Part shown: positions 1 to 37,864 of the stretch, one piece after another
Layout: each line of letters begins with the position of its first letter
Numbering within the stretch: the stretch's first letter is position 1
IMG/VR virus record: IMGVR_UViG_3300035126_000621
Coordinates: 1-37,864 of that record
Reading direction: 5' to 3' (one strand)
DNA from: a virus
Length of the DNA stretch: 37,864 bases
Program-made: the position numbers and the translations under genes
Notes under the pieces: model-generated
Databases searched by the model: none
What the model was told of the DNA's origin: nothing
Seen by the model: only the letters and a program-made list of their open reading frames with translations

Positions 1-143
1 GTCCGGGGAAAGCGTATTGACTACTTGCTCCGCGCTTAAAACCCCTTCCTGCTTGGCCACGAATTCGCCGTTTTCATAGGCAACAAACGTCGGGAATCTT
101 TCAATCAATCCTTGTGTAATCGAATCAGGCGCGGCGCCTAACT
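1..143. repeat. Left copy of the 143-bp terminal overlap
   Basis: Bases 1-143 are repeated at 37722-37864 in the same orientation. The only difference is position 127 (a) against 37848 (g). The difference is silent (a proline codon on the minus strand). The thioredoxin-like reading frame continues unbroken through the joint, so this is the seam of a circular or circularly permuted genome, not two genes. Confidence 0.93.
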
Positions 144-300
144 CATACTGCGCTTTAACAAATCCGCTTTCTTCCAACTCTTCAAACACCGGCTTCATTT
201 TATCGCAAAACGAGCACCCTTTTTCGCGGTAAAACATTACGATTACTTTTTTATGCTCCGCGATTGCTTGCCGAAAATTCGATTCTGTCAGTTTAATCAC
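1..300 (-). CDS. Thioredoxin-like protein, N-terminal 100 residues (continues at 37721)
   Basis: The frame starts at a GTG at 300, preceded 8 nt upstream by AGGAG, and runs to base 1 without a stop. It continues in frame at 37721 down to 37575, giving 148 residues. It shows a thioredoxin fold: a beta strand (VIVMFY), the redox motif CSFC at residues 29-32, and the cis-proline strand FPTF at about 69-72. The last 45 or so residues are a charged helical tail not typical of thioredoxins. There is no signal peptide, so it should act in the cytoplasm as a dithiol/disulfide oxidoreductase. It begins 12 bp after the stop of the cysteine-rich fibre gene and is followed by a cysteine-rich small protein, which suggests (inference) a role in handling the thiols of those neighbours. 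It could equally serve a nucleotide-metabolism or host-takeover role. Confidence 0.85.
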   Translation of the reverse strand, partial: MIKLTESNFRQAIAEHKKVIVMFYREKGCSFCDKMKPVFEELEESGFVKAQYELGAAPDSITQGLIERFPTFVAYENGEFVAKQEGVLSAEQVVNTLSPD

Positions 301-311
301 CGCGTTTACTC

Positions 312-2216
312 CTACGTTACTAATTTATACCAGACTTTGCTTGCGACATACGTTCCGCCGCATGATCCGACCGGCCCCGAATAAGTACCTTCACAAGTCG
401 AAAGCTCTGAATTCCAACTGCATCCATATCCAATATCCGCGTTGCACGCACTCTCATCTACGTTGCTTCCGCAACTTTTTGGCGTCCAGGAACAACCGCT
501 AGGAGTGCAAGTGCCCTCAATGATGAACGTAGAGCATGGCGCCGTTATGGTATGATGATGGACTGCAACTTTCTGATACTGCGTCGTTAGGGAAATGGCG
601 CTTTCCAGAGTATCGCCGGCGCTCGCAACAACGGTGATTGTCCCGGTTGCCCCAATGTTTTTGATCCAATAAATCCGGGAAGTATTCCCGCGATTGGCAA
701 CCGAGGACGGCGGCAAAATGTAGGTTGCTCCGCTTGTCCAGGTGCAACCCGCTTCCGCATTACAAGCGGCGGAACCGTCATCCGTAAGATTGGAACAGTT
801 TGCCGTCCCTTGACAGGCCGCACCGTAAGTACCGGAGCAACCGCCGGTGTAATAGTTGCCGGTGCATAAATCGCCGGTGCAAGAGCTAAAATAATTCCCG
901 TTGCACGCCGTGAAATAATAGCCGCTGCAAACGCCGGTCCCGGAATCATAGGAGCATTCGGGTTGCGTAGCGCACGCGGTTCCATCCCCGCCGCCATCGC
1001 TGAATGTGTTACAATCGCCATCAACAACGGCAACGCATGGGGTTTGGGCATTACAGGACGCGGTGTCCGTAAATACGGAACAGGAGTTGCCTTCATTTGC
1101 CGTACATCCGGCAATGGCAATACAGGCCGCCGTGGTCGTTTGGGCCGGACAGGATGTTGTGTCATAGGCGCAACTTCCGCCATAAGCGTCGTCTAACGCT
1201 TCGCAAGTTGAGGAATCAGTATTGTTGGCGGACGAACAGGAGGTTTGATCCCAAGTGCAACCGGCGTGGCTGCTTTCACAGGTTGAAAAATCCGTTCCGC
1301 TAAACTCGCTGCAACTGGAACCCGAAAACCAGGTGCATCCGACTAACGTATGGCTATTGCAAGTCCCTTCAGTTGTGTAGGTATTACATGCCGTTGGCGT
1401 TCCAGAGCAAATGTTCGCGCCTGAGGCATCGCCATAGACGACCGTTTCCGATGCTATGTTATAGCTAGACGCCGTGACTAGCGTTCCCTTGGCTGCGAAA
1501 CTTCCGTAGGTTGAAAGGGTTGTCGTCGTGCCAGTATCGGCGCTTCCAGCGGTAACATTAGAACCATTATGGATAGCGCCGTAATTATATATTCCGCCGC
1601 CATAGATTTGAATAACTTGACTCGGCGCGCCGATAGTGCTTCCAACGGCAAACCAATGCGACGAACCAGCGCCAACCGAATAATAATATTGGGCGCCGTC
1701 ATGGTTTGAAATTCCGCCCTTAATCGTGGAACCAAACTTAAAGCTAATATGAATCCGCGTGCCCGCTGGATTCAACAGTTCCAGGTTAGAAAGGGTATCA
1801 ATCGTGGCGCTGTTGGCCGCCGATAAAGTAGCAAGGCCGTTAACGGTTAGCTTTGGAATTGCAAGGCCGTCCTGAGCGTTGGTCAGGTATTGCAAACCCT
1901 CGGACCACGCGCCCTCATTGATGCGGTATTGCAATTTCCATTCGGCGGAAGGGTTATTGACGCCTTGGATTGGCAAGGCCCACGACCTAAAGTCAACGGC
2001 CTGAGAGGCCGGACCGTTAGTTTTCCAACCGAACCCGCGCCATCGGACAGCCGGCGAGGATTGTTGCACGCCAGCCAGGGCCGTGGTTGCCGTTTCAATT
2101 CGTATAAAATCGGTTGGCGCCAGTAATTGATTTACGGCCTTAAAGGTATTTATGCCGGTCCATTCGTTACTTCTTGTTAGAAGATTTTTAACTGTAGGAC
2201 TAATGGCGCCAAACAT
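312..2216 (-). CDS. Cysteine-rich tail fibre / receptor-binding protein
   Basis: This 634-residue protein has three parts. Residues 1-265 resemble phage fibre shafts: an aromatic, glycine-rich part (WRGFGWKT, QGVNNPSAEW) then beta-rich sequence. Residues 270-491 hold 28 cysteines in irregular repeats of the types C-x(5-8)-GCTW-x(3-5)-C and CxGxYxxxC. Residues 498-556 are a typical fibre-tip beta segment (LPPSSVANRG, IYWIKN, TITVVASAGDTLE, TTQYQKV), which is the same kind of end as in the 1033-residue fibre at 17351-20452. Residues 561-619 carry eight more cysteines before the final strand (VASKVWYKLV). The cysteine blocks therefore look like loops inserted into a standard fibre tip. Probable role is host recognition with disulfide-stabilised tips. 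It overlaps the upstream gene by 1 bp and lies directly upstream of the thioredoxin gene. Function is inferred from layout; no enzyme motif is seen. Confidence 0.8.
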   Translation of the reverse strand: MFGAISPTVKNLLTRSNEWTGINTFKAVNQLLAPTDFIRIETATTALAGVQQSSPAVRWRGFGWKTNGPASQAVDFRSWALPIQGVNNPSAEWKLQYRINEGAWSEGLQYLTNAQDGLAIPKLTVNGLATLSAANSATIDTLSNLELLNPAGTRIHISFKFGSTIKGGISNHDGAQYYYSVGAGSSHWFAVGSTIGAPSQVIQIYGGGIYNYGAIHNGSNVTAGSADTGTTTTLSTYGSFAAKGTLVTASSYNIASETVVYGDASGANICSGTPTACNTYTTEGTCNSHTLVGCTWFSGSSCSEFSGTDFSTCESSHAGCTWDQTSCSSANNTDSSTCEALDDAYGGSCAYDTTSCPAQTTTAACIAIAGCTANEGNSCSVFTDTASCNAQTPCVAVVDGDCNTFSDGGGDGTACATQPECSYDSGTGVCSGYYFTACNGNYFSSCTGDLCTGNYYTGGCSGTYGAACQGTANCSNLTDDGSAACNAEAGCTWTSGATYILPPSSVANRGNTSRIYWIKNIGATGTITVVASAGDTLESAISLTTQYQKVAVHHHTITAPCSTFIIEGTCTPSGCSWTPKSCGSNVDESACNADIGYGCSWNSELSTCEGTYSGPVGSCGGTYVASKVWYKLVT

Positions 2217-2638
2217 TAGAAGTTTCCACCTTGGGCAATAAGGGAAATAACTCTTGTGGCCGTGACAGTAGCAATTGATTTAACTCTTAAAACCGCGCCG
2301 GTTGCCAAGAACAGGCACCTGTTTCCGTTGTTGTCCACGTTCAACGCATTAAAAAGCTGAGGATGGGCCAAAGCATTTAGCGTTACTGTTGAATTAGTAT
2401 TGCCAGTATTTGCCGGAACGGTAAACGTACCGACGATATAATCAACAGCGGAAATCGTGACAACCAGTTGCAAATCCTTTGCGCCTGTATCTGTAGACGT
2501 AACAAGGATGTTATCAATTTTTGAACCGTTAGCGCCCGCTGTAAAAAGAGTTTTCAAGGTTGTAGTATCAGCGGGTAAAATTTGCGTTACGCCGGTTGTA
2601 ATGGTTTGGGGAAAAATTGGCGTTGCTGTTACTGGCAT
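2216..2638 (-). CDS. Small beta-rich structural protein upstream of the fibre
   Basis: The 140-residue protein is rich in Thr, Val, Ala and Asn with almost no charged residues, and reads as alternating beta strands (ITTGVTQILPADTTTLKTLF, NILVTSTDTGAKDLQLVVTI). This composition is usual for phage tail or head decoration proteins. Its start follows the previous gene with no gap and its stop overlaps the fibre start, so the three genes 3121-312 are translated as a unit. I do not recognise a specific family. Likely a virion component near the fibre, possibly an adhesin or fibre-attachment protein. Confidence 0.6.
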   Translation of the reverse strand: MPVTATPIFPQTITTGVTQILPADTTTLKTLFTAGANGSKIDNILVTSTDTGAKDLQLVVTISAVDYIVGTFTVPANTGNTNSTVTLNALAHPQLFNALNVDNNGNRCLFLATGAVLRVKSIATVTATRVISLIAQGGNF

Positions 2639-3121
2639 TTAGAAACCTCCAAATTGAGTGTAGGACACAAGGTCAACAGGGGCCTTGGCCGCCGCGTTAG
2701 TAGCCGCAACAATAACGCTTTGATTGTTTGGAAATCCGGTTGTCCCGGTGCCGGCGCTAGAATCCAAGGTGACTGGAATCGTCCAATAATCGGCGCCCGA
2801 ATGAATCGGTGCGGCCGAAACTATCCAAATTTGATAGTTGTCCGGTTGGTTTTTATCTTGAACGACGAACACGCTTCCGGCCAGGATAAGCGGAATAAAC
2901 GGGTCCACGTTGATTCCGTTTTCGGTAATATGGTCAACCGTGATGTTGAGCGCGGCGGTTTGAGTCGCGTTGTCATAACGGATATAACCGGCGGGCGGAT
3001 TGCCTCCAACCGTTGTGTCAACTTGATACTCGCCAATGATCGAAGAGGTAAAGACGTTGGTTGTTGAACCCGCGCCTACCAGGTCAAGCGTGCCGGTTAA
3101 CGGGTTAAACTTGAAACCCAT
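2639..3121 (-). CDS. Structural protein with fibre-type N-terminus
   Basis: 160 residues. The N-terminus (MGFKFNPLTGTLDLVG) is a short motif frequently seen at the start of phage tail-fibre-associated proteins. The centre (GNPPAGYIRYDNATQTAALNI, with repeated beta strands) fits a small trimeric or jelly-roll type virion protein. The gene sits 3 bp from its upstream neighbour and abuts the next gene. The assignment to the fibre/tail module rests on context and composition only; no catalytic motif is visible. Confidence 0.6.
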   Translation of the reverse strand: MGFKFNPLTGTLDLVGAGSTTNVFTSSIIGEYQVDTTVGGNPPAGYIRYDNATQTAALNITVDHITENGINVDPFIPLILAGSVFVVQDKNQPDNYQIWIVSAAPIHSGADYWTIPVTLDSSAGTGTTGFPNNQSVIVAATNAAAKAPVDLVSYTQFGGF

Positions 3122-7079: not shown

Positions 7080-7551
7080 TTATTATCGCCAAGGATTTGG
7101 CCCTCAACTTGTAAAAAAGGGCCAGGGGATAACCGCCAAGGATAACTTGGTGGAGGGAATGGCAACCCGATTAAAAACGCCAGAATATATTTAACCGCGC
7201 CAAGGTAAAGGCTGATCGGGCATAAAGCCCCTTGGGCCGACTACTTGCCGCCTGTGAAGAACGGACGCTTAAAAACACAGGCAAGGGATAACACGGCAAA
7301 CCGGCGGTTAGGTGTATGGGGAAAGCGGCTGCGAGGGGCAGTGCGCGACCTGCGTTGAAAGGGTGATGTTGGAGGCCAGGAGATAACGGCGCCTGTCCGC
7401 ATCAGGGGATTTACAAAGGAAACAACGCGCGTTGTTTTGTTTTTTTTGTAAAGCCTCTGATCCAACCCGACAACGTAAAGGAACCCGATCCGCTTCCAGG
7501 GCCCAAATCCTGTAGGTAGGGAAATGCCGTTTCTTTTGTCCAAAGGTCAAA
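7080..7551 (+). other. Repeat-bearing intergenic stretch between divergent operons
   Basis: I find no convincing gene here. The rightward strand holds four copies of GATAAC (7128, 7141, 7287, 7382) and three of CGCCAAGG (7087, 7134, 7198). It has an imperfect inverted repeat CCGCCAAG/CTTGGTGG at 7133-7153. It ends in the nested palindrome at 7410-7452. It may encode a non-coding RNA, hold binding sites for an early regulator, or serve as a replication region. Short open frames exist but lack usable ribosome sites. Confidence 0.45.
7410..7452 (+). terminator. Nested palindrome, terminator-like on the plus strand
   Basis: AAACAACGCGCGTTGTTT (7420-7437) is a perfect 18-bp palindrome. A run of eight T (7440-7447) follows it, as in a rho-independent terminator for rightward transcription. 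Outside it, TTTACAAA (7410-7417) and TTTGTAAA (7445-7452) form a second inverted repeat. The hairpin would have a very small loop, so a DNA-level site is an alternative. Confidence 0.55.
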
Positions 7552-8079
7552 ATGCAATCCGTTATAGCTAATCAAACTCCAAGCGTCCGAACCGTTATAT
7601 TGAATCAGGCGGAAATGAAGTTGGCCCGGTACATAGCCGAGAGTCGGCAACGCACCAACAGGGCCAGCGAAACGGTTAATCAACTACGCGCCAATGCTGA
7701 TCCGGTGGAAAAGGAAATGCTAGGGGTTGCTGGCGAGTTGGCATTCTGTCGTCTGTTCAACTGCTACCCCGATTTAACAACCACGAATCGGTCGAAACAA
7801 TGCGGCGAGGATAGCGGGGACTGTTACGTTGCCGGCGTTGGTTGGGTTGATGTTAAGACGAAAAGCCAACCAGGGGATTTGTTGATTGTTACCCCAACCG
7901 CGCCCAGCGGCCATTGGTTCGCCGTCATGATCGGCACGCCGCCCACGTTTTATTTTGCCGGCGCCATTCCGCAGGTTCGCGCCCTTAACCAAAAATATCT
8001 CAAGCAAATTCGCACCGGCCTGCATTACATTATTCCGCCATCCGATTGGCTGCCCGACTTCAAACTGCCCAAGGTTTAG
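7552..8079 (+). CDS. PD-(D/E)XK nuclease-like protein
   Basis: 175 residues, first gene of the rightward operon. It has a plausible PD-(D/E)XK core: GVAGELAF with E62, a strand with D90 (SGDCYVAG), then D100-V-K102 in VDVKTK, and a further strand LLIVTPTAP. The layout resembles small phage nuclease-like proteins of unknown substrate. AAAGG stands 5 nt before the ATG. The stop codon lies inside the 27-bp repeat that begins the duplicated cassette. Nuclease activity is inferred from motif spacing and is less certain than for VRR-NUC. Confidence 0.7.
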   Translation: MQSVIANQTPSVRTVILNQAEMKLARYIAESRQRTNRASETVNQLRANADPVEKEMLGVAGELAFCRLFNCYPDLTTTNRSKQCGEDSGDCYVAGVGWVDVKTKSQPGDLLIVTPTAPSGHWFAVMIGTPPTFYFAGAIPQVRALNQKYLKQIRTGLHYIIPPSDWLPDFKLPKV

Positions 8080-8101
8080 ACAACTGTCTAAAAGTTCTAC
8101 A
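8075..8101 (+). repeat. Cassette-start repeat, copy 1
   Basis: This 27-bp block matches 8567-8593 at 24 of 27 positions. It begins with TTTAG, which supplies the stop of the upstream gene, and contains TTTAGAC-aact-GTCTAAA, a 7-bp inverted repeat with a 4-nt centre that may be an operator. Confidence 0.85.
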
Positions 8102-8135
8102 CAGTAGCAAACTGACACCTGTTGAAATCATTGGG

Positions 8136-8151
8136 AAATTCTCGAGAATTT
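8136..8151. promoter_or_regulatory. Perfect 16-bp palindrome
   Basis: AAATTCTCGAGAATTT reads the same on both strands and lies between the cassette-start repeat and the gene at 8199. Such a loop-free palindrome suits a dimeric regulator. It has no counterpart in the second cassette, which instead holds a CCCC/GGGG hairpin near 8616-8631. Confidence 0.5.
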
Positions 8152-8179
8152 TAGCGGCATGACGCGTGCAGCACCTCAT

Positions 8180-8202
8180 GGCATACGAGGTAACGAATAT
8201 GA
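8180..8202 (+). repeat. Translation-start repeat, copy 1
   Basis: These 23 bases are identical to 8659-8681. They contain GAGGT as ribosome site and the ATG of the following gene, so two unrelated small proteins have the same translation-start region. Confidence 0.9.
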
Positions 8203-8501
8203 AAACAGCTTGTTCAGGTTGCAGTCTTGGTTTTCTGTCTCATTGGTTGAAGGACGGCAAGTGTAACGCGTGCCGTGGAAATGCTGTTGTTGTCGAAATT
8301 GATCCACGCGGCCCAACCCGTAAAATTGAGGCCGTACATATTGATACTAACGGCGGTAACACCACGGTTGACTTGTCGTGCGGACATTCCGAGGAACGCG
8401 TGTCTCACTTTTCTTACCGCGTTGGAGAGTATGACCGATGCTATTCCTGTTTGAAGCAGCACCAAAACGCGGTTTCGGAATCAACCAAACAGGGCGGTTG
8501 A
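8199..8501 (+). CDS. Small zinc-finger-like protein (cassette 1)
   Basis: The start at 8199 is set by GAGGTAACGAAT before the ATG. The 100-residue protein has CSGC (residues 4-7) and CNAC (about 24-27), a likely zinc ribbon, and later CGH and CYSC motifs that could form a second site. No family is recognised. It is the first gene of cassette 1, following the 27-bp repeat. The homologous slot in cassette 2 holds a different protein, also with a CxxC pair. Confidence 0.65.
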   Translation: MKTACSGCSLGFLSHWLKDGKCNACRGNAVVVEIDPRGPTRKIEAVHIDTNGGNTTVDLSCGHSEERVSHFSYRVGEYDRCYSCLKQHQNAVSESTKQGG

Positions 8502-8502
8502 T

Positions 8503-8571
8503 ATGACCCAAAAACAATTTGGTTCCGTTACGGTTGGGAATTCCTCCATTCAGAAAGTGTCTAACTTTTAG
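8503..8571 (+). pseudogene. Truncated copy of the 8931 gene
   Basis: This 22-residue frame begins MTQKQFGSVTVG, closely matching the MTQKQIGSVTVG start of the full gene at 8931, including the bases before the ATG. After residue 12 the match ends and a stop follows at the 27-bp repeat. It looks like a relic created when the cassette was duplicated or recombined. It could still be a small expressed peptide. Confidence 0.65.
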
Positions 8572-8593
8572 GCAACTGTCTGAAACTTCTACA
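8567..8593 (+). repeat. Cassette-start repeat, copy 2
   Basis: Second copy of the 8075-8101 block, 24 of 27 bases the same. As in copy 1, its TTTAG supplies the stop codon of the upstream frame. Confidence 0.85.
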
Positions 8594-8658
8594 GCGTTTC
8601 GCCGTGGTTGCCCCTTTTAACGGGGTTTCAACGTGGCACAACGGATGCACTATGTCAG

Positions 8659-8681
8659 GGCATACGAGGTAACGAATATGA
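8659..8681 (+). repeat. Translation-start repeat, copy 2
   Basis: Identical over 23 bases to 8180-8202, covering the ribosome site and ATG of the gene at 8678. Confidence 0.9.
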
Positions 8682-8920
8682 CGAAAGCACAAAAGGCCGC
8701 CGAAACCAGAAAACAAAACGCAGCATTCAAGGCGCGGATGGCCTTGATTCATTCCCAAGTTGCCGCCGTGGTCGCATCGGGCAAGTGTCCTGATTGTGGT
8801 TCGGCATTGCGCCGCAACCTGTCGCTGGCCGGTTGGTATCAGTGCGAACAATACGGCGCCGAAACTCACCGCGCTAGGGCCTCTGATCCTACCTGCAACT
8901 GGCAGGGATTCACGGAATAA
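8678..8920 (+). CDS. Small zinc-ribbon-like protein (cassette 2)
   Basis: The 80-residue protein starts at the ATG in the repeated start block. After a basic helix (MTKAQKAAETRKQNAAFKARM) it has CPDC (about residues 37-40), a WYQC strand and a later DPTCNW, so one zinc could be held by four cysteines. The pattern recalls short ribbon proteins that bind nucleic acid. It is not evidently related to the cassette-1 protein beyond the shared upstream region. Confidence 0.6.
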   Translation: MTKAQKAAETRKQNAAFKARMALIHSQVAAVVASGKCPDCGSALRRNLSLAGWYQCEQYGAETHRARASDPTCNWQGFTE

Positions 8921-8930
8921 GGCGGCCGAT

Positions 8931-9185
8931 ATGACACAAAAACAAATTGGATCGGTAACGGTCGGCGTTTGCGAAACGGCAATGGTTACGGAAGTCCTTG
9001 CCAATGGTTCGGCCATCATTACAAGCGAAACTGGCCGAGTGTTAAACTTACAGCCCATCTCATTGACTGCGCCGGACTGGCAGGTTGGCCAGGTTGGAAA
9101 AATTACCTTTTACAGCACCGGCACGCGCGGTTGGTATGATTGGGAATTTATCGCAAATCTTGGCGCGGCGTTACCTCGTAAATAA
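8931..9185 (+). CDS. Small beta-rich protein (cassette 2, full-length copy)
   Basis: 84 residues (MTQKQIGSVTVG...), mostly beta strands (TAMVTEVLANGSAIITSE, QVGQVGKITFYSTGTRGWYDWEFI), as in a small OB- or SH3-like barrel. The truncated copy at 8503 shares its first 12 residues. It is unrecognised as a family. The start at 8931 is confirmed by the matched sequence in both copies; a longer frame from 8760 would overlap the gene before it completely. Confidence 0.65.
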   Translation: MTQKQIGSVTVGVCETAMVTEVLANGSAIITSETGRVLNLQPISLTAPDWQVGQVGKITFYSTGTRGWYDWEFIANLGAALPRK

Positions 9186-9207
9186 CACTCGTGCCCAGGA
9201 CGGCCTT

Positions 9208-9486
9208 ATGCGGGAAACTGCTTGGGGCCGTTTCCTTTTCGTTGCCATGCAGCATTCTTTCGCTTATTTGCAACCAATGAAATTCCTTCACGACAATAAC
9301 ACCGGCGTTGATTTGACGCCAAGGCAATGGGCTAAACGGGCCGTGGGCCGCATCGCGCGGCGCCACTGCGTTGAGCTACAAGCGGAAATCGAGCAACTTT
9401 CAGAGGAGGACCGGCAGTTAGTCGCGGATGAGTTTAGCCGCATGGTTAAACTCTTAGAGACTAGACGCGGGTTTATTCTAGCCTAA
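9208..9486 (+). CDS. Hypothetical helical protein
   Basis: A start at 9208 has AGGA 7 nt upstream; the frame is open further back to 9085 but that part overlaps the previous gene. The 92-residue product is helical and basic (WAKRAVGRIARRHCVELQAEIEQLSEEDRQLVADEFSRMVKLLETRR). Its stop overlaps the ATG of the methyltransferase-like gene (TAATG), so the two are coupled. It could be a partner of that protein. No family is recognised. Confidence 0.6.
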   Translation: MRETAWGRFLFVAMQHSFAYLQPMKFLHDNNTGVDLTPRQWAKRAVGRIARRHCVELQAEIEQLSEEDRQLVADEFSRMVKLLETRRGFILA

Positions 9487-10088
9487 TGCGTGTTTTGGTT
9501 GCCTGTGAATACAGCGGTACAGTGCGCGATGCGTTTGCGGCGCTAGGCCATGACGCATGGTCATGTGATTTGCTGCCGACCGATGCGCCAGGTAATCATT
9601 TCCAGGGCAACGTCCTTGAAGTCCTCAACAACGGTTGGGATTTGATGATTGCCCATCCGCCTTGCACGCATCTCGCCGTTTCCGGCGCTAGGTATTTTGC
9701 CCAAAAAAAGGTGCAACAGGCCGAGGCTTTGGAATTTGTCGCCGTTCTACTCAACGCGCCCATTCCCAAGATTGCGCTAGAAAACCCCGTTTCCATCATC
9801 TCGTCCAAAATCCGGCGGCCCGATCAAATCATTCAACCGTGGCAGTTTGGCCATCCCGAATCAAAAGCAACTTGTCTCTGGTTGAAGGGCCTTCCACTAC
9901 TGGAACCAACCAAGATTTTACCCAAGCCGGCCAGCGGCCGATGGGAGAATCAAACGCCAAGCGGTCAAAACAAACTTGGCCCTTCTGCTGATCGGTGGAA
10001 AATTAGAAGCAAAACCTATAGCGGCATTGCGGCCGCGATGGCCGCGCAATGGGGTAACACCGCCCAACTCGATTTGTTTAGCCAATAA
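9486..10088 (+). CDS. Short DNA cytosine-methyltransferase-like protein
   Basis: 200 residues. The start MRVLVACEYSGTVRDAFAALGHDAWSCD gives a Rossmann-type SAM-binding loop with acidic ends, then HPPCTHLAVSG at 57-66, whose PPC fits the catalytic motif IV of C5-cytosine methyltransferases. ENP at 99-101 resembles the ENV motif. The length is about half of typical C5 enzymes, and I see no target-recognition region. Related short proteins are common in phage genomes as putative DNA methylases. Possible role: marking phage DNA to escape host restriction. Activity on DNA is not proved. It ends 11 bp inside the convergent gene at 10078. Confidence 0.7.
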   Translation: MRVLVACEYSGTVRDAFAALGHDAWSCDLLPTDAPGNHFQGNVLEVLNNGWDLMIAHPPCTHLAVSGARYFAQKKVQQAEALEFVAVLLNAPIPKIALENPVSIISSKIRRPDQIIQPWQFGHPESKATCLWLKGLPLLEPTKILPKPASGRWENQTPSGQNKLGPSADRWKIRSKTYSGIAAAMAAQWGNTAQLDLFSQ

Positions 10089-10362
10089 ACCCGTTGAGTT
10101 TCAGCACGCGGAAAATACCCTCTTCTAGGGTGTAAACGATTCGGTGCGGTATCGGTGTTTGATACTCCGCTTCAAGCGCATGGATCATTTCATGGATAAA
10201 GGTTTTGATAACCTCGCTTTCCGCCTGATTCAGCTTCAAGAAAATCGTTCGCGTGCCAGGATCGCATAACCCCAAACACTCCGCGTCGTCGGCAATCGTT
10301 TCCTGCCAAACGATGTTGTAAAACACCTTGGATTTGATGCGCACGCGGCTAGGGATTTTCAT
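10078..10362 (-). CDS. Small zinc metalloprotease-like protein (HExxH)
   Basis: 94 residues with HEMIH (about residues 57-61) in a helix (VIKTFIHEMIHALEAEY), the zinc-binding HExxH signature also found in SprT- and ImmA-type proteins. It is short and lacks other recognisable domains. The ATG overlaps the stop of the metallophosphoesterase (ATGA). It is the last gene of the late operon, so it may be a small accessory of lysis or host takeover, but no substrate can be named. Confidence 0.7.
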   Translation of the reverse strand: MKIPSRVRIKSKVFYNIVWQETIADDAECLGLCDPGTRTIFLKLNQAESEVIKTFIHEMIHALEAEYQTPIPHRIVYTLEEGIFRVLKLNGFIG

Positions 10363-11303
10363 AAGCTAATGAACCTTGGCCCGTATTGGTCAATAACGCC
10401 AAGTCCTAACGTCCAATCGTGCTGTTTTACTGGCGAATAGGACAGGGGTTTGGCGCGCTCATCTCCCAAGTACCCGCAGTTCAATTCCCACAAAATTTGG
10501 CCCTTAACGGTTTGGTAAAAGAATACCCCGCCCTTATGTGTGTGTCCGCAAACCACGTTGCGTTGATACCGCTGCGCGTGCTGGCCCAAGCGTAGGTAGT
10601 GCCCATGCGTGAACGAAACCCCATCAATTTCCAGCCAGGCGCGCGGGTCGTGAATCGTAGACACGCCGGGAAATTCAAACCATTTCCGCAACTCGATAAA
10701 AACTTCCGCTTCCGGCGCCAGTTCCGCCACCTTTTTTAGAGGTCGTATGTCGTGGTTTCCGAGCAACTGCCAGCATTTCGCGCGCGGTAAAATGTTTTGA
10801 AGTTTCTTCCAAAAGTCCTCAGCCATGCGGCGGCCCAGGGTGATTTCCTCATCTGGCCGGATAACCAAATGGCTGCGCGGAAACTTTGCCCAACTATACA
10901 TATCAAACAGGTCGCCCACTTGAACTATGTCGGTAATGTCGGGATTGCATTCCGCGAACTGTAGGACGGCGGACAAGGCTCCCAGGTTGGCAAACGGAAA
11001 ATGCAAATCCCCAAGCGCCAAGATTTTCCGGCCGCTCGTTCCGCCCACCGGCCGTTTGATGGCGCTATCAAATTCAATTTTTGTCAGGTCGGCAACAAAG
11101 GCCGCGTCAGTGTCTTTTTTATCGGCATAGGTTTTTAGGCCGGCCGCCATTACCAATGGCGTGTATCCTCCAAACTCGGCCCGGTATGCTTTTTCGCCTA
11201 ATTTGGAATGTTGCCGAAACTCATCACGGTTTGGAGTGTGTCCTAGTTCGGACGCTATTCGGCGGACTTCCGCGATCAGGTCGGCCTGAAGTTTTTTTGA
11301 CAC
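10359..11303 (-). CDS. Calcineurin-like metallophosphoesterase
   Basis: 314 residues. The metal-binding motifs appear in the right order: GDLH at 98-101, GDLFD at 130-134, GNHD at 182-185, HGH at 233-235 and GHTH at 253-256. Before the domain is a short N-terminal region (RIASELGHTPNRDEFRQHSKLGEKAY), which resembles the small helical repeats found in homing endonuclease tails. Family members hydrolyse phosphoesters, from protein phosphate to nucleic acids. A phage role could be DNA or RNA end-processing or nucleotide cleanup. A GTG start at 11303 without a clear ribosome site is used. Confidence 0.88.
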   Translation of the reverse strand: MSKKLQADLIAEVRRIASELGHTPNRDEFRQHSKLGEKAYRAEFGGYTPLVMAAGLKTYADKKDTDAAFVADLTKIEFDSAIKRPVGGTSGRKILALGDLHFPFANLGALSAVLQFAECNPDITDIVQVGDLFDMYSWAKFPRSHLVIRPDEEITLGRRMAEDFWKKLQNILPRAKCWQLLGNHDIRPLKKVAELAPEAEVFIELRKWFEFPGVSTIHDPRAWLEIDGVSFTHGHYLRLGQHAQRYQRNVVCGHTHKGGVFFYQTVKGQILWELNCGYLGDERAKPLSYSPVKQHDWTLGLGVIDQYGPRFISL

Positions 11304-11347
11304 GCCATAAAATCGTGACGGGTTTTTAGATTATTGCAAATCGTGAT

Positions 11348-11554
11348 TCATGATTCCGAATCAGGATCAAAAAGGTCGGGCGCCTTATCGGCGGCGCGTT
11401 GAATGTCGAGGTCGGTTGGAAAGTGTTTTAAAATGGCGCGTGCTTGGCGGCGCATTTCAAGCGGCACGCGTGGCGTTTCTTTTGGCCACAACAAGGATTG
11501 CAGGAATTTACGCGCCCATGCGACGGCGCGGCGTCGTTCATCTGGAAGCGTCAT
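11348..11554 (-). CDS. BPSL0761-like small protein
   Basis: 68 residues with an N-terminus MTLPDERRRAVAWARKFL, then TPRVPLEMRRQARAILKHFP and a DLDIQ segment. This matches the small family called BPSL0761 in Burkholderia-type genomes, whose function is unknown. It often lies near lysis or tail-end genes of prophages and phages. It overlaps the membrane-protein gene upstream by 17 bp. Confidence 0.6.
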   Translation of the reverse strand: MTLPDERRRAVAWARKFLQSLLWPKETPRVPLEMRRQARAILKHFPTDLDIQRAADKAPDLFDPDSES

Positions 11555-11717
11555 TTTTGCGGATAAGGTATTTTAGCATTTCCTCGATTTGCTCAAGTCG
11601 GTGGTCAATGTGCTGGTAATTGTCGCGCGCGGATTCTTTGGTTTGAAATGTCGAGTAGGACCAAACAGCAACCCCGGCCACAAACCCAACGGCGGTTGTA
11701 ATCAGTTCGGCAATCAT
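11538..11717 (-). CDS. Small membrane protein with coiled coil, spanin/holin-like
   Basis: 59 residues. One transmembrane span near the N-terminus (ELITTAVGFVAGVAVWSYS) is followed by a charged coiled coil (YQHIDHRLEQIEEMLKYLIRK). The single N-terminal span with an external helix is the layout of inner-membrane spanins. The ATG overlaps the stop of the lipoprotein gene (ATGA). A holin is a possible alternative. The lysis role is inferred from position beside the lipoprotein and the lytic enzyme. Confidence 0.55.
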   Translation of the reverse strand: MIAELITTAVGFVAGVAVWSYSTFQTKESARDNYQHIDHRLEQIEEMLKYLIRKNDASR

Positions 11718-11980
11718 GGCCGGCGCTCCAGGCAGGACCGGACGAAATTTACCGTGGTGTCAAAATCTTCTTTGCTCATGCACCGAAAGCCCTCTGCGTC
11801 ACGGAATGGGATTAGTTCATTGTCCTGCCGGCGGATCAGGCCACCGTCATCATTGGACAGGTAATAAACCTTCACCGACAGGCCGCCAGTGCGACAACCG
11901 GACGCCATAAGGGCTAGGGCGCCAGCGACAAGCAAAAATGCAATGGTGAACCGGCTAGCGGCCTTTAAGCAAATCCTCAT
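11714..11980 (-). CDS. Small lipoprotein, possible outer-membrane spanin
   Basis: The ATG at 11980 gives 88 residues with a classical secretion signal: positive N-terminus (MRICLKAASR), hydrophobic core (FTIAFLLVAGALALM), and lipobox-like ASGC at 26-29. The mature part is short (about 60 residues) with two further cysteines. In a Gram-negative phage, a lipoprotein between a membrane protein and a lytic enzyme is a usual o-spanin candidate. Longer frames to 12094 lack any ribosome site and would lose the signal. The gene overlaps the upstream membrane-protein gene. Confidence 0.6.
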   Translation of the reverse strand: MRICLKAASRFTIAFLLVAGALALMASGCRTGGLSVKVYYLSNDDGGLIRRQDNELIPFRDAEGFRCMSKEDFDTTVNFVRSCLERRP

Positions 11981-34052: not shown

Positions 34053-34138
34053 TGGCGGCCCCGGCCGGAGTCGAACCGGCGACCACTTCGGCCAGCGTCC
34101 TGGCTTTTCGGAGTATTCTACCTCTGAACTACGGGGCC
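34053..34138 (-). tRNA. tRNA-like element with hairpin in place of a normal anticodon loop
   Basis: The acceptor stem GGCCCCG/CGGGGCC is perfect, and the CCA end is encoded after a G discriminator. The D arm (GTTC, loop AGAGGTA, GAAT) has the usual GG. The T arm is perfect (GCCGG, loop TTCGACT, CCGGC). The anticodon stem (CTCCG/CGAAG) has a C-A mismatch. Its loop is 18 nt rather than 7, and holds the hairpin GCCAG-GACG-CTGGC, with no U33-anticodon pattern. It therefore does not look able to decode. The place between terL and the MuF gene, in the sense direction of the late transcript, suggests a processing signal as an alternative role. Confidence 0.75.
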
Positions 34139-37327: not shown

Positions 37328-37582
37328 TTAGGGCCATTTCCCTTTCGGACAGGTTTCTGTTACCAGCATTGTTTTTGCTTCCACGAAACATCCGCACGCC
37401 AAGCACCGCAACCCGCTTTTGAATTCGCATCCCTCGCAAATCGCTTTTCTGGCCTTAATAATTGCGTCATCCGCAATTACAAAACCTTCCTGTACGAAAT
37501 GCTTTGCGGCGCTAGTCGCGGCCTTGGCCGCGTTCTTCGCCAGGTCGGCCCATGAACAGGCGCCACAATCCGAATCAGACAT
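37328..37582 (-). CDS. Cysteine-rich small protein
   Basis: 84 residues with a cluster at the C-terminal end: CEGC, CLACGC and a late TCPKGKW, plus CGAC near the start. The C-terminal cluster (CxxC, CxxCxC, C) is a zinc-ribbon-like pattern found in many phages. The first 40 residues are helical (LAKNAAKAATSAAKHFV). The ATG overlaps the thioredoxin stop by 8 bp, so the two are coupled. A metal-binding role is likely; function unknown. Confidence 0.7.
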   Translation of the reverse strand: MSDSDCGACSWADLAKNAAKAATSAAKHFVQEGFVIADDAIIKARKAICEGCEFKSGLRCLACGCFVEAKTMLVTETCPKGKWP

Positions 37583-37864
37583 TTCGGCGCCTTTCGATTT
37601 CGGCCCTGATTTTGGTTAGGTGATCCTTCAAGGGATAGATTTGGTCAATCAACGCCGCCTCATCCGCCATAAGTTGCAGCATTGTGGCCTTTTCCAAGGG
37701 AATGGCCTTTTTAGGCAACTTGTCCGGGGAAAGCGTATTGACTACTTGCTCCGCGCTTAAAACCCCTTCCTGCTTGGCCACGAATTCGCCGTTTTCATAG
37801 GCAACAAACGTCGGGAATCTTTCAATCAATCCTTGTGTAATCGAATCGGGCGCGGCGCCTAACT
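37575..37864 (-). CDS. Thioredoxin-like protein, C-terminal part across the joint
   Basis: Bases 37575-37721 code for the last 48 residues and stop of the protein that begins at 300. Bases 37722-37864 repeat the part already counted at 1-143. This part has the charged helical tail (MLQLMADEAALIDQIYPLKDHLTKIRAEIERRRNV). The entry is incomplete at its 5' side in this window only because of the chosen break in the circle. Confidence 0.85.
   Translation of the reverse strand, partial: LGAAPDSITQGLIERFPTFVAYENGEFVAKQEGVLSAEQVVNTLSPDKLPKKAIPLEKATMLQLMADEAALIDQIYPLKDHLTKIRAEIERRRNV
37722..37864. repeat. Right copy of the 143-bp terminal overlap
   Basis: Same as 1-143 with one silent base difference at 37848 (g against a). 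The overlap joins the ends of the assembly. Confidence 0.93.

Follow-up and report, generated by a model that had tools for sequence, protein, structure and literature searches.

How a tailed phage could build a fibre tip crowded with cysteines is the question raised by the locus described here. Because the cytoplasm in which tailed phages assemble is reducing, receptor-binding tips with many disulfide bonds are unexpected in them. An earlier note on this DNA had voiced that worry for a fibre with 36 cysteines; the worry itself points to what the note had missed, a thioredoxin-fold gene adjacent to that of the fibre. We consider it probable that the fibre has a disulfide-rich tip, that the adjacent thioredoxin-fold oxidoreductase acts on its cysteines, and that the two move as a cassette.

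The window, by which we mean the whole stretch of DNA analysed, is a virus record 37,864 bases long. Its ends overlap directly (positions 1-143 and 37722-37864, 142 of 143 identical) and are joined in a near-identical contig, L051, so that it most likely represents an entire, circularly permuted genome of about 37.7 kb (37,721 bp). The record is classed as linear without end repeats. Structural genes are present alongside the fibre, as in a phage genome, with matches to terminase, capsid, portal-like and head-protease genes, and the same is true of related contigs. Elsewhere in the window, a tRNA-Leu (anticodon aag) lies at 34053-34138, just downstream of the terminase gene and between the terminase and portal-region genes, and a single gene at 10359-11303 combines a homing-endonuclease-associated HNH repeat with a calcineurin-like phosphoesterase domain. 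The fibre and its neighbours are listed in Table 1.

Table 1. Coordinates of the fibre gene, its parts and the neighbouring genes in the window
Feature	Position	Strand	Basis
Gene of the Cys-rich tail fibre (634 aa with 36 Cys)	312..2216	minus	ORF and homologues
N-terminal part and shaft rich in beta structure, residues 1-242, free of Cys and least conserved	1491..2216	minus	mean pairwise identity 0.33-0.35
Beta-domain strands preceding block 1, residues 243-269	1410..1490	minus	alignment, AlphaFold2, solved-structure matches
First Cys block, residues 270-493, with 28 Cys in three-Cys repeats of ~25 aa and then CxGxY units	738..1409	minus	alignment and model
Beta segment separating blocks 1 and 2, residues 494-560, which forms the core of the beta domain at the tip	537..737	minus	Foldseek and solved-structure matches
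Second Cys block, residues 561-621, with 8 Cys, each invariant across 12/12 fibres	354..536	minus	alignment
Final beta-domain strand, residues 622-634	315..353	minus	AlphaFold2 and solved-structure matches
Thioredoxin-fold gene, codons 1-100 of 148, with the CSFC active site	1..300	minus	PF00085, E=1.4e-11; full gene read in near-identical L002
Remainder of the thioredoxin-fold gene, C-terminal helical extension, across the circular junction	37575..37721	minus	end overlap; L051 joins the ends
140-aa gene just upstream of the fibre	2216..2638	minus	45-64% identity; accompanies fibres of this type in phages that are otherwise unrelated

The fibre gene and its relatives

The reading frame that had been proposed at 312-2216 is real and codes for a single protein of 634 residues, but on the minus strand (2216 to 312); the plus strand has stop codons throughout this interval. 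The 36 cysteines fall into two blocks as had been described, 28 at residues 270-491 and 8 at 561-619. They make up 5.7% of the fibre versus 0.5% of the other large proteins of the window (30 cysteines in 6087 residues), so their clustering is not due to chance. The protein has no match in Pfam, PHROG, NCBIfam or PDB sequences, and a profile of the tip has none in PDB. The N-terminus (residues 1-51) of one homologue, L057, matches annotated cyanophage tail-fibre/mtd genes, as the window protein itself does not; the N- and C-terminal modules of L057 both match phage tail genes. In look, the repeats are similar to the Cys-rich extracellular repeats of Paramecium surface antigens (PF01508), but only one of 12 fibre members matches that domain, below significance (best E=0.018).

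Twelve further Cys-rich homologues were found, all in uncultivated phages. A first degenerate DNA pattern, built on three CxGxY units, hit 46 viral contigs and yielded one true relative, L024, whose fibre is 54% identical to that of the window from end to end; the remaining contigs were chance-like or of other low complexity. Profile and pattern searches added L050, L055, L061, G002 (the record of L064), L084, L085 and L130/L146, the last pair being the new true relatives among the 61 stretches hit by a third DNA pattern. A thioredoxin search added L052, L053, L054, L056 and L057. Searches of 84,980 species genomes of bacteria and archaea with fibre or thioredoxin patterns gave no relatives, by a method that needs exact words of 7-8 residues and may miss some. 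Comparison of the terminases gave generic Caudoviricetes only. A Bdellovibrio host, suggested by the N-terminus of the L061 fibre, was dropped for want of evidence.

The repeats noticed earlier are genuine and of two kinds, three-cysteine units of about 25 residues (C-x7..11-C-x5..7-[G]C-[TS]-[WY]-x4..6-) and one-cysteine units of 8-10 residues (CxG[x][YF]xxx). Of the window's 36 cysteines, 28 are invariant in all 12 aligned fibres and three more are present in 11. Conserved, even numbers of cysteines, as expected of a disulfide-rich domain, are found in block 1 of 11 of the 12 fibres (24, 28, 32 or 36; L053 has 25, and the count for L052 is taken from the repeat alignment) and in block 2 of all 12 (8, or 10 in L055). 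Four fibres (L050, L053, L055 and L061) are without one three-cysteine unit and also without one cysteine of the CxGxY array, the position of the latter in L061 differing from that in the other three. A lone cysteine occurs in the strand preceding block 1 in a few fibres. Totals that stay even despite gain and loss of repeats are what intrachain pairing would predict, although the count is no formal test, the sequences being related. Together with the conserved cysteines and the confidently predicted fold, the even numbers fit the disulfide-rich reading of the earlier note.

Fold of the tip

The tip was modelled as a single chain with AlphaFold2 using 12 sequences (mean pLDDT 81.3; mostly 65-90 in block 1). 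The full-length model has a pTM of only 0.33, its N-terminal half is poorly predicted, and Foldseek found nothing significant for it in PDB. Solved structures that match the tip model are T4 gp9, CBA120 TSP4 and the tailspike of Acinetobacter phage Solidus (Z 9.3-11.5, rmsd 1.6-2.5 A). These matches align just 84-92 residues, which are spread across residues 1-392 of the model, and the beta domain is therefore split by both insertions. Against viral models, Foldseek finds the beta segment to resemble many predicted phage tail proteins (prob 1.00, rmsd 2-3 A). The fibre thus carries the beta-domain fold common to known phage tail proteins.

In the model, a single phage beta domain of the ordinary kind is made up of the strands preceding block 1, the beta segment and the final strand, and the two Cys-rich blocks are inserted in its loops. 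This agrees with the proposals that the blocks are loops inserted in a standard fibre end and that the domain is taken up again by a final strand beyond block 2. The likeness to T4 gp9, CBA120 TSP4 and the Solidus tailspike is confined to the core of about 90 residues; the window fibre differs in having Cys-rich insertions of 224 and 61 residues in place of two loops, and none of the three matches covers them. The C-terminal, receptor-facing beta domain would then bear two large disulfide-rich loops, and disulfides, not a large hydrophobic core, would hold the tip together.

The thioredoxin-fold neighbour and its linkage to the fibre

The neighbouring gene starts 11 nt downstream of the fibre stop. 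Its product scores 44.7 bits with PF00085 against a cut-off of 23.5 and has the CSFC and FPT (cis-Pro) motifs; the C-terminal helical extension of enzymes of this type is conserved. It is not a classical thioredoxin by the equivalog model TIGR01068 (38 bits versus 96.8). In a full Pfam scan, neither the CSFC enzymes nor the CPHC enzyme of G002 matched the DsbA family (PF01323), thioredoxin families being listed instead. Among the fibre neighbours the active sites are CSFC, CSHC, CPKC and CPHC. The enzymes of L085 (20.5 bits with PF00085, below cut-off) and G002 are just 22-25% identical to the main group. The presence of different thioredoxins at one place argues for function over common descent.

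A thioredoxin-fold gene adjoins the Cys-rich fibre, or is one gene away from it, in 12 of 13 cases. The association was also seen from either side. A search that used just the thioredoxin profile gave nine contigs. In eight of these a Cys-rich fibre lies immediately upstream or one gene away; the ninth is cut, with the end of the fibre visible. Conversely, among the nine fibres known or found without use of thioredoxin (window, L024, L050, L055, L061, G002, L084, L085 and L130/L146), eight have a thioredoxin-fold gene, in counts that are not phylogenetically independent. No match to Thioredoxin, Thioredoxin_2 or DSBA occurred in five records whose fibre modules are related at the N- or C-terminus but have no Cys blocks (L062, L086, S-LBS1, S-CBS3 and SilentRX). 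Outside the cassette the phages have few genes in common, chiefly the 140-aa gene that precedes the fibre or a distantly related terminase, the exceptions being the close relatives L085/L146/L053 and L061/L084.

The best reading of these sequences is that the disulfide-rich fibre tip and a dedicated thiol-disulfide oxidoreductase form a mobile cassette. The two, joined in one fibre type by the 140-aa gene, would be transferred among otherwise unrelated phages. No description of such a fibre/thioredoxin cassette was found in the open-access literature.

Several other features were seen around the cassette. The window encodes an 84-aa Cys-rich CxxC protein (CEGC..RCLACGCF..CPKGKWP; 37328-37582) directly after the thioredoxin gene, and this protein also follows the enzyme in L084. 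The thioredoxins of L054 (10001-10525) and L055 (9998-10522) have Cys-rich C-terminal tails (SCCESCSDGGSCSGGH and DCCDGCAEGNGCGGGH), which may be a site for electron shuttling or for metal. The proteins encoded two genes before the fibre in the window (2639-3121) and in L024 (2696-3229) are otherwise different but have a common end peptide, VDLVSYTQFGGF; the window protein begins with the FNPLTG.LD module that starts other fibres.

Signal-peptide variants

A simple rule for signal peptides, which asks for a charged start, then a hydrophobic stretch and AxA, was applied to all fibres and enzymes; only the fibre and enzyme of G002 and the fibre of L061 qualify, and the window fibre has none. In G002 (L073), the fibre (7119-11225) and the enzyme (11242-11838) both have an apparent signal peptide, and the enzyme has a Cys-containing C-terminal tail and a CPHC active site of the DsbA type. 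With its signal peptide and CPHC site the G002 enzyme resembles the DsbA-type oxidases of E. coli, but differs in that it matches Pfam Thioredoxin/Thioredoxin_2, with no match to PF01323 reported. In this lineage it is as if the job had shifted to the periplasm. The Cys-rich fibre of L061 (7569-9836), with its apparent signal peptide, starts at an ATG that overlaps the previous stop. No thioredoxin-fold gene is present in the 39-kb record of L061, the only Cys-rich fibre phage without the enzyme; its downstream gene order is common to L084, which has a thioredoxin where L061 is without one.

The signal peptides of L061 and G002 also recall the mosaic adhesive trimer (MAT) fibres of Bdellovibrio, which are phage-fibre-like and have a signal peptide but are bacterial and not phage-borne (PMC10769870). 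The main text of that paper mentions neither cysteine nor disulfide (PMC10769870). Having no signal peptide, the window fibre does not belong to the MAT superfamily, which is defined by a signal peptide followed by a conserved MAT N-terminal domain of about 130 aa.

The two signal-peptide cases, few as they are, fit the idea that the task of the enzyme is the disulfides of the fibre. It is conceivable, although we regard it as doubtful, that these phages run their own oxidative folding of the fibre tip in two versions. One would be cytoplasmic, with a CSFC, CSHC or CPKC enzyme. The other would be exported, both proteins carrying a signal peptide in G002 and the fibre alone carrying one in L061; here the fibre would mature in the periplasm and join the virion at or after lysis.

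Role of the enzyme

Most likely, the enzyme helps the cysteines of the fibre to pair correctly. As an oxidase, isomerase or redox chaperone working on them, it would allow about 18 disulfides per chain to form correctly despite synthesis in the reducing cytoplasm. The CSFC site alone does not reveal the direction in which the enzyme works, and classical thioredoxin is a reductase. The enzyme might be a reductase or holdase that keeps the 36 cysteines reduced in the cytoplasm, the disulfides forming only after lysis, in oxidising surroundings, and locking the tip. The CSFC enzymes, being without a signal peptide, would work in the reducing cytoplasm, they match TIGR01068 weakly, below the cut-off, and no phage-encoded DsbB or DsbB-like oxidase was found in the records (a search for Erv1/Alr gave no information, its controls being silent). 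We nevertheless think this alternative unlikely, since it leaves the CPHC site and the signal peptides on both proteins of G002 unexplained.

Less likely still is that the thioredoxin gene is a passenger, serving as a host redox helper or in nucleotide metabolism or replication, and lies beside the fibre by accident. Thioredoxin serves the DNA polymerase of T7, the usual classification of thioredoxins from phages is nucleotide metabolism (phrog_22), and a related phage, G007, has a ribonucleotide reductase, the usual client of phage thioredoxin, about 12 kb away. The genome of the window has no ribonucleotide reductase. An accidental neighbour is also hard to reconcile with the association in eight of nine blind cases versus none of five with Cys-free fibres, with different thioredoxin groups occurring at one place, and with the paucity of other genes common to these phages.

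Variation among the fibres

The earlier note had suggested that the blocks are perhaps a variable receptor-binding surface and had proposed to look for variation confined to them. Their placement at the fibre tip is as that proposal would have it, and repeat number, which is how the blocks vary, does differ between phages. However, among 12 fibres block 1 is the most conserved part, with a mean pairwise identity of 0.52 (0.45 without Cys), versus 0.33 for the N-terminus, 0.35 for the shaft and 0.36 for the beta segment; block 2 is at 0.43. In near-identical pairs, codon differences number 22 synonymous and three amino-acid (L130 versus L146) and three synonymous and one amino-acid (window versus L002), and all four amino-acid changes fall in the beta segment. 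These patterns indicate that the Cys blocks are under purifying selection, and on both counts the hypervariable-loop proposal was rejected as very improbable. Weakest of all is the proposal that the cysteines bind metal (zinc or iron) and form no disulfides: clustered cysteines in a cytoplasmically made protein could suggest it, and other phage fibres bind metals, but we judged it most improbable in view of single cysteines 4-12 residues apart with no zinc-ribbon-type CxxC pairs, Gly/Ser/Thr/Asp-rich repeats of the secreted type, signal peptides on two homologues and a thiol enzyme as partner.

Comparison with known systems

Disulfides are known in phage tails, from Agrobacterium phage Milano (PMC10811340) and a crassvirus (PMC10172136). 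Milano is, like the phage of the window, a tailed phage, and its extensive network of tail disulfides includes the spike and short fibre, but these disulfides mainly cross-link subunits (PMC10811340). Those of the window fibre would be internal to a Cys-rich domain of the tip, and the gene of an enzyme adjoins that of the fibre. Thioredoxin is not mentioned in the main text of the Milano paper (PMC10811340).

The signal-peptide variants raise the question of whether a tail part can mature outside the cytoplasm, and the fibre-partner enzymes could help in making disulfide-rich proteins in E. coli. A further comparison is with vaccinia virus, in which E10R-A2.5L-G4L constitutes a virus-encoded cytoplasmic disulfide pathway (PMC1318495). 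G4L, its last step, is a virus-encoded, thioredoxin-like protein thought to pass disulfides from the cytoplasm to virion surface proteins, as the window enzyme might do for the fibre; no homology between the two is claimed past the thioredoxin fold. Vaccinia differs in being a poxvirus with a known Erv-type oxidase (PMC1318495), of which none was identified for the window phage. If the proposed role is true, the 36-cysteine tip and its dedicated thiol oxidoreductase would be a phage counterpart of the poxvirus disulfide pathway.
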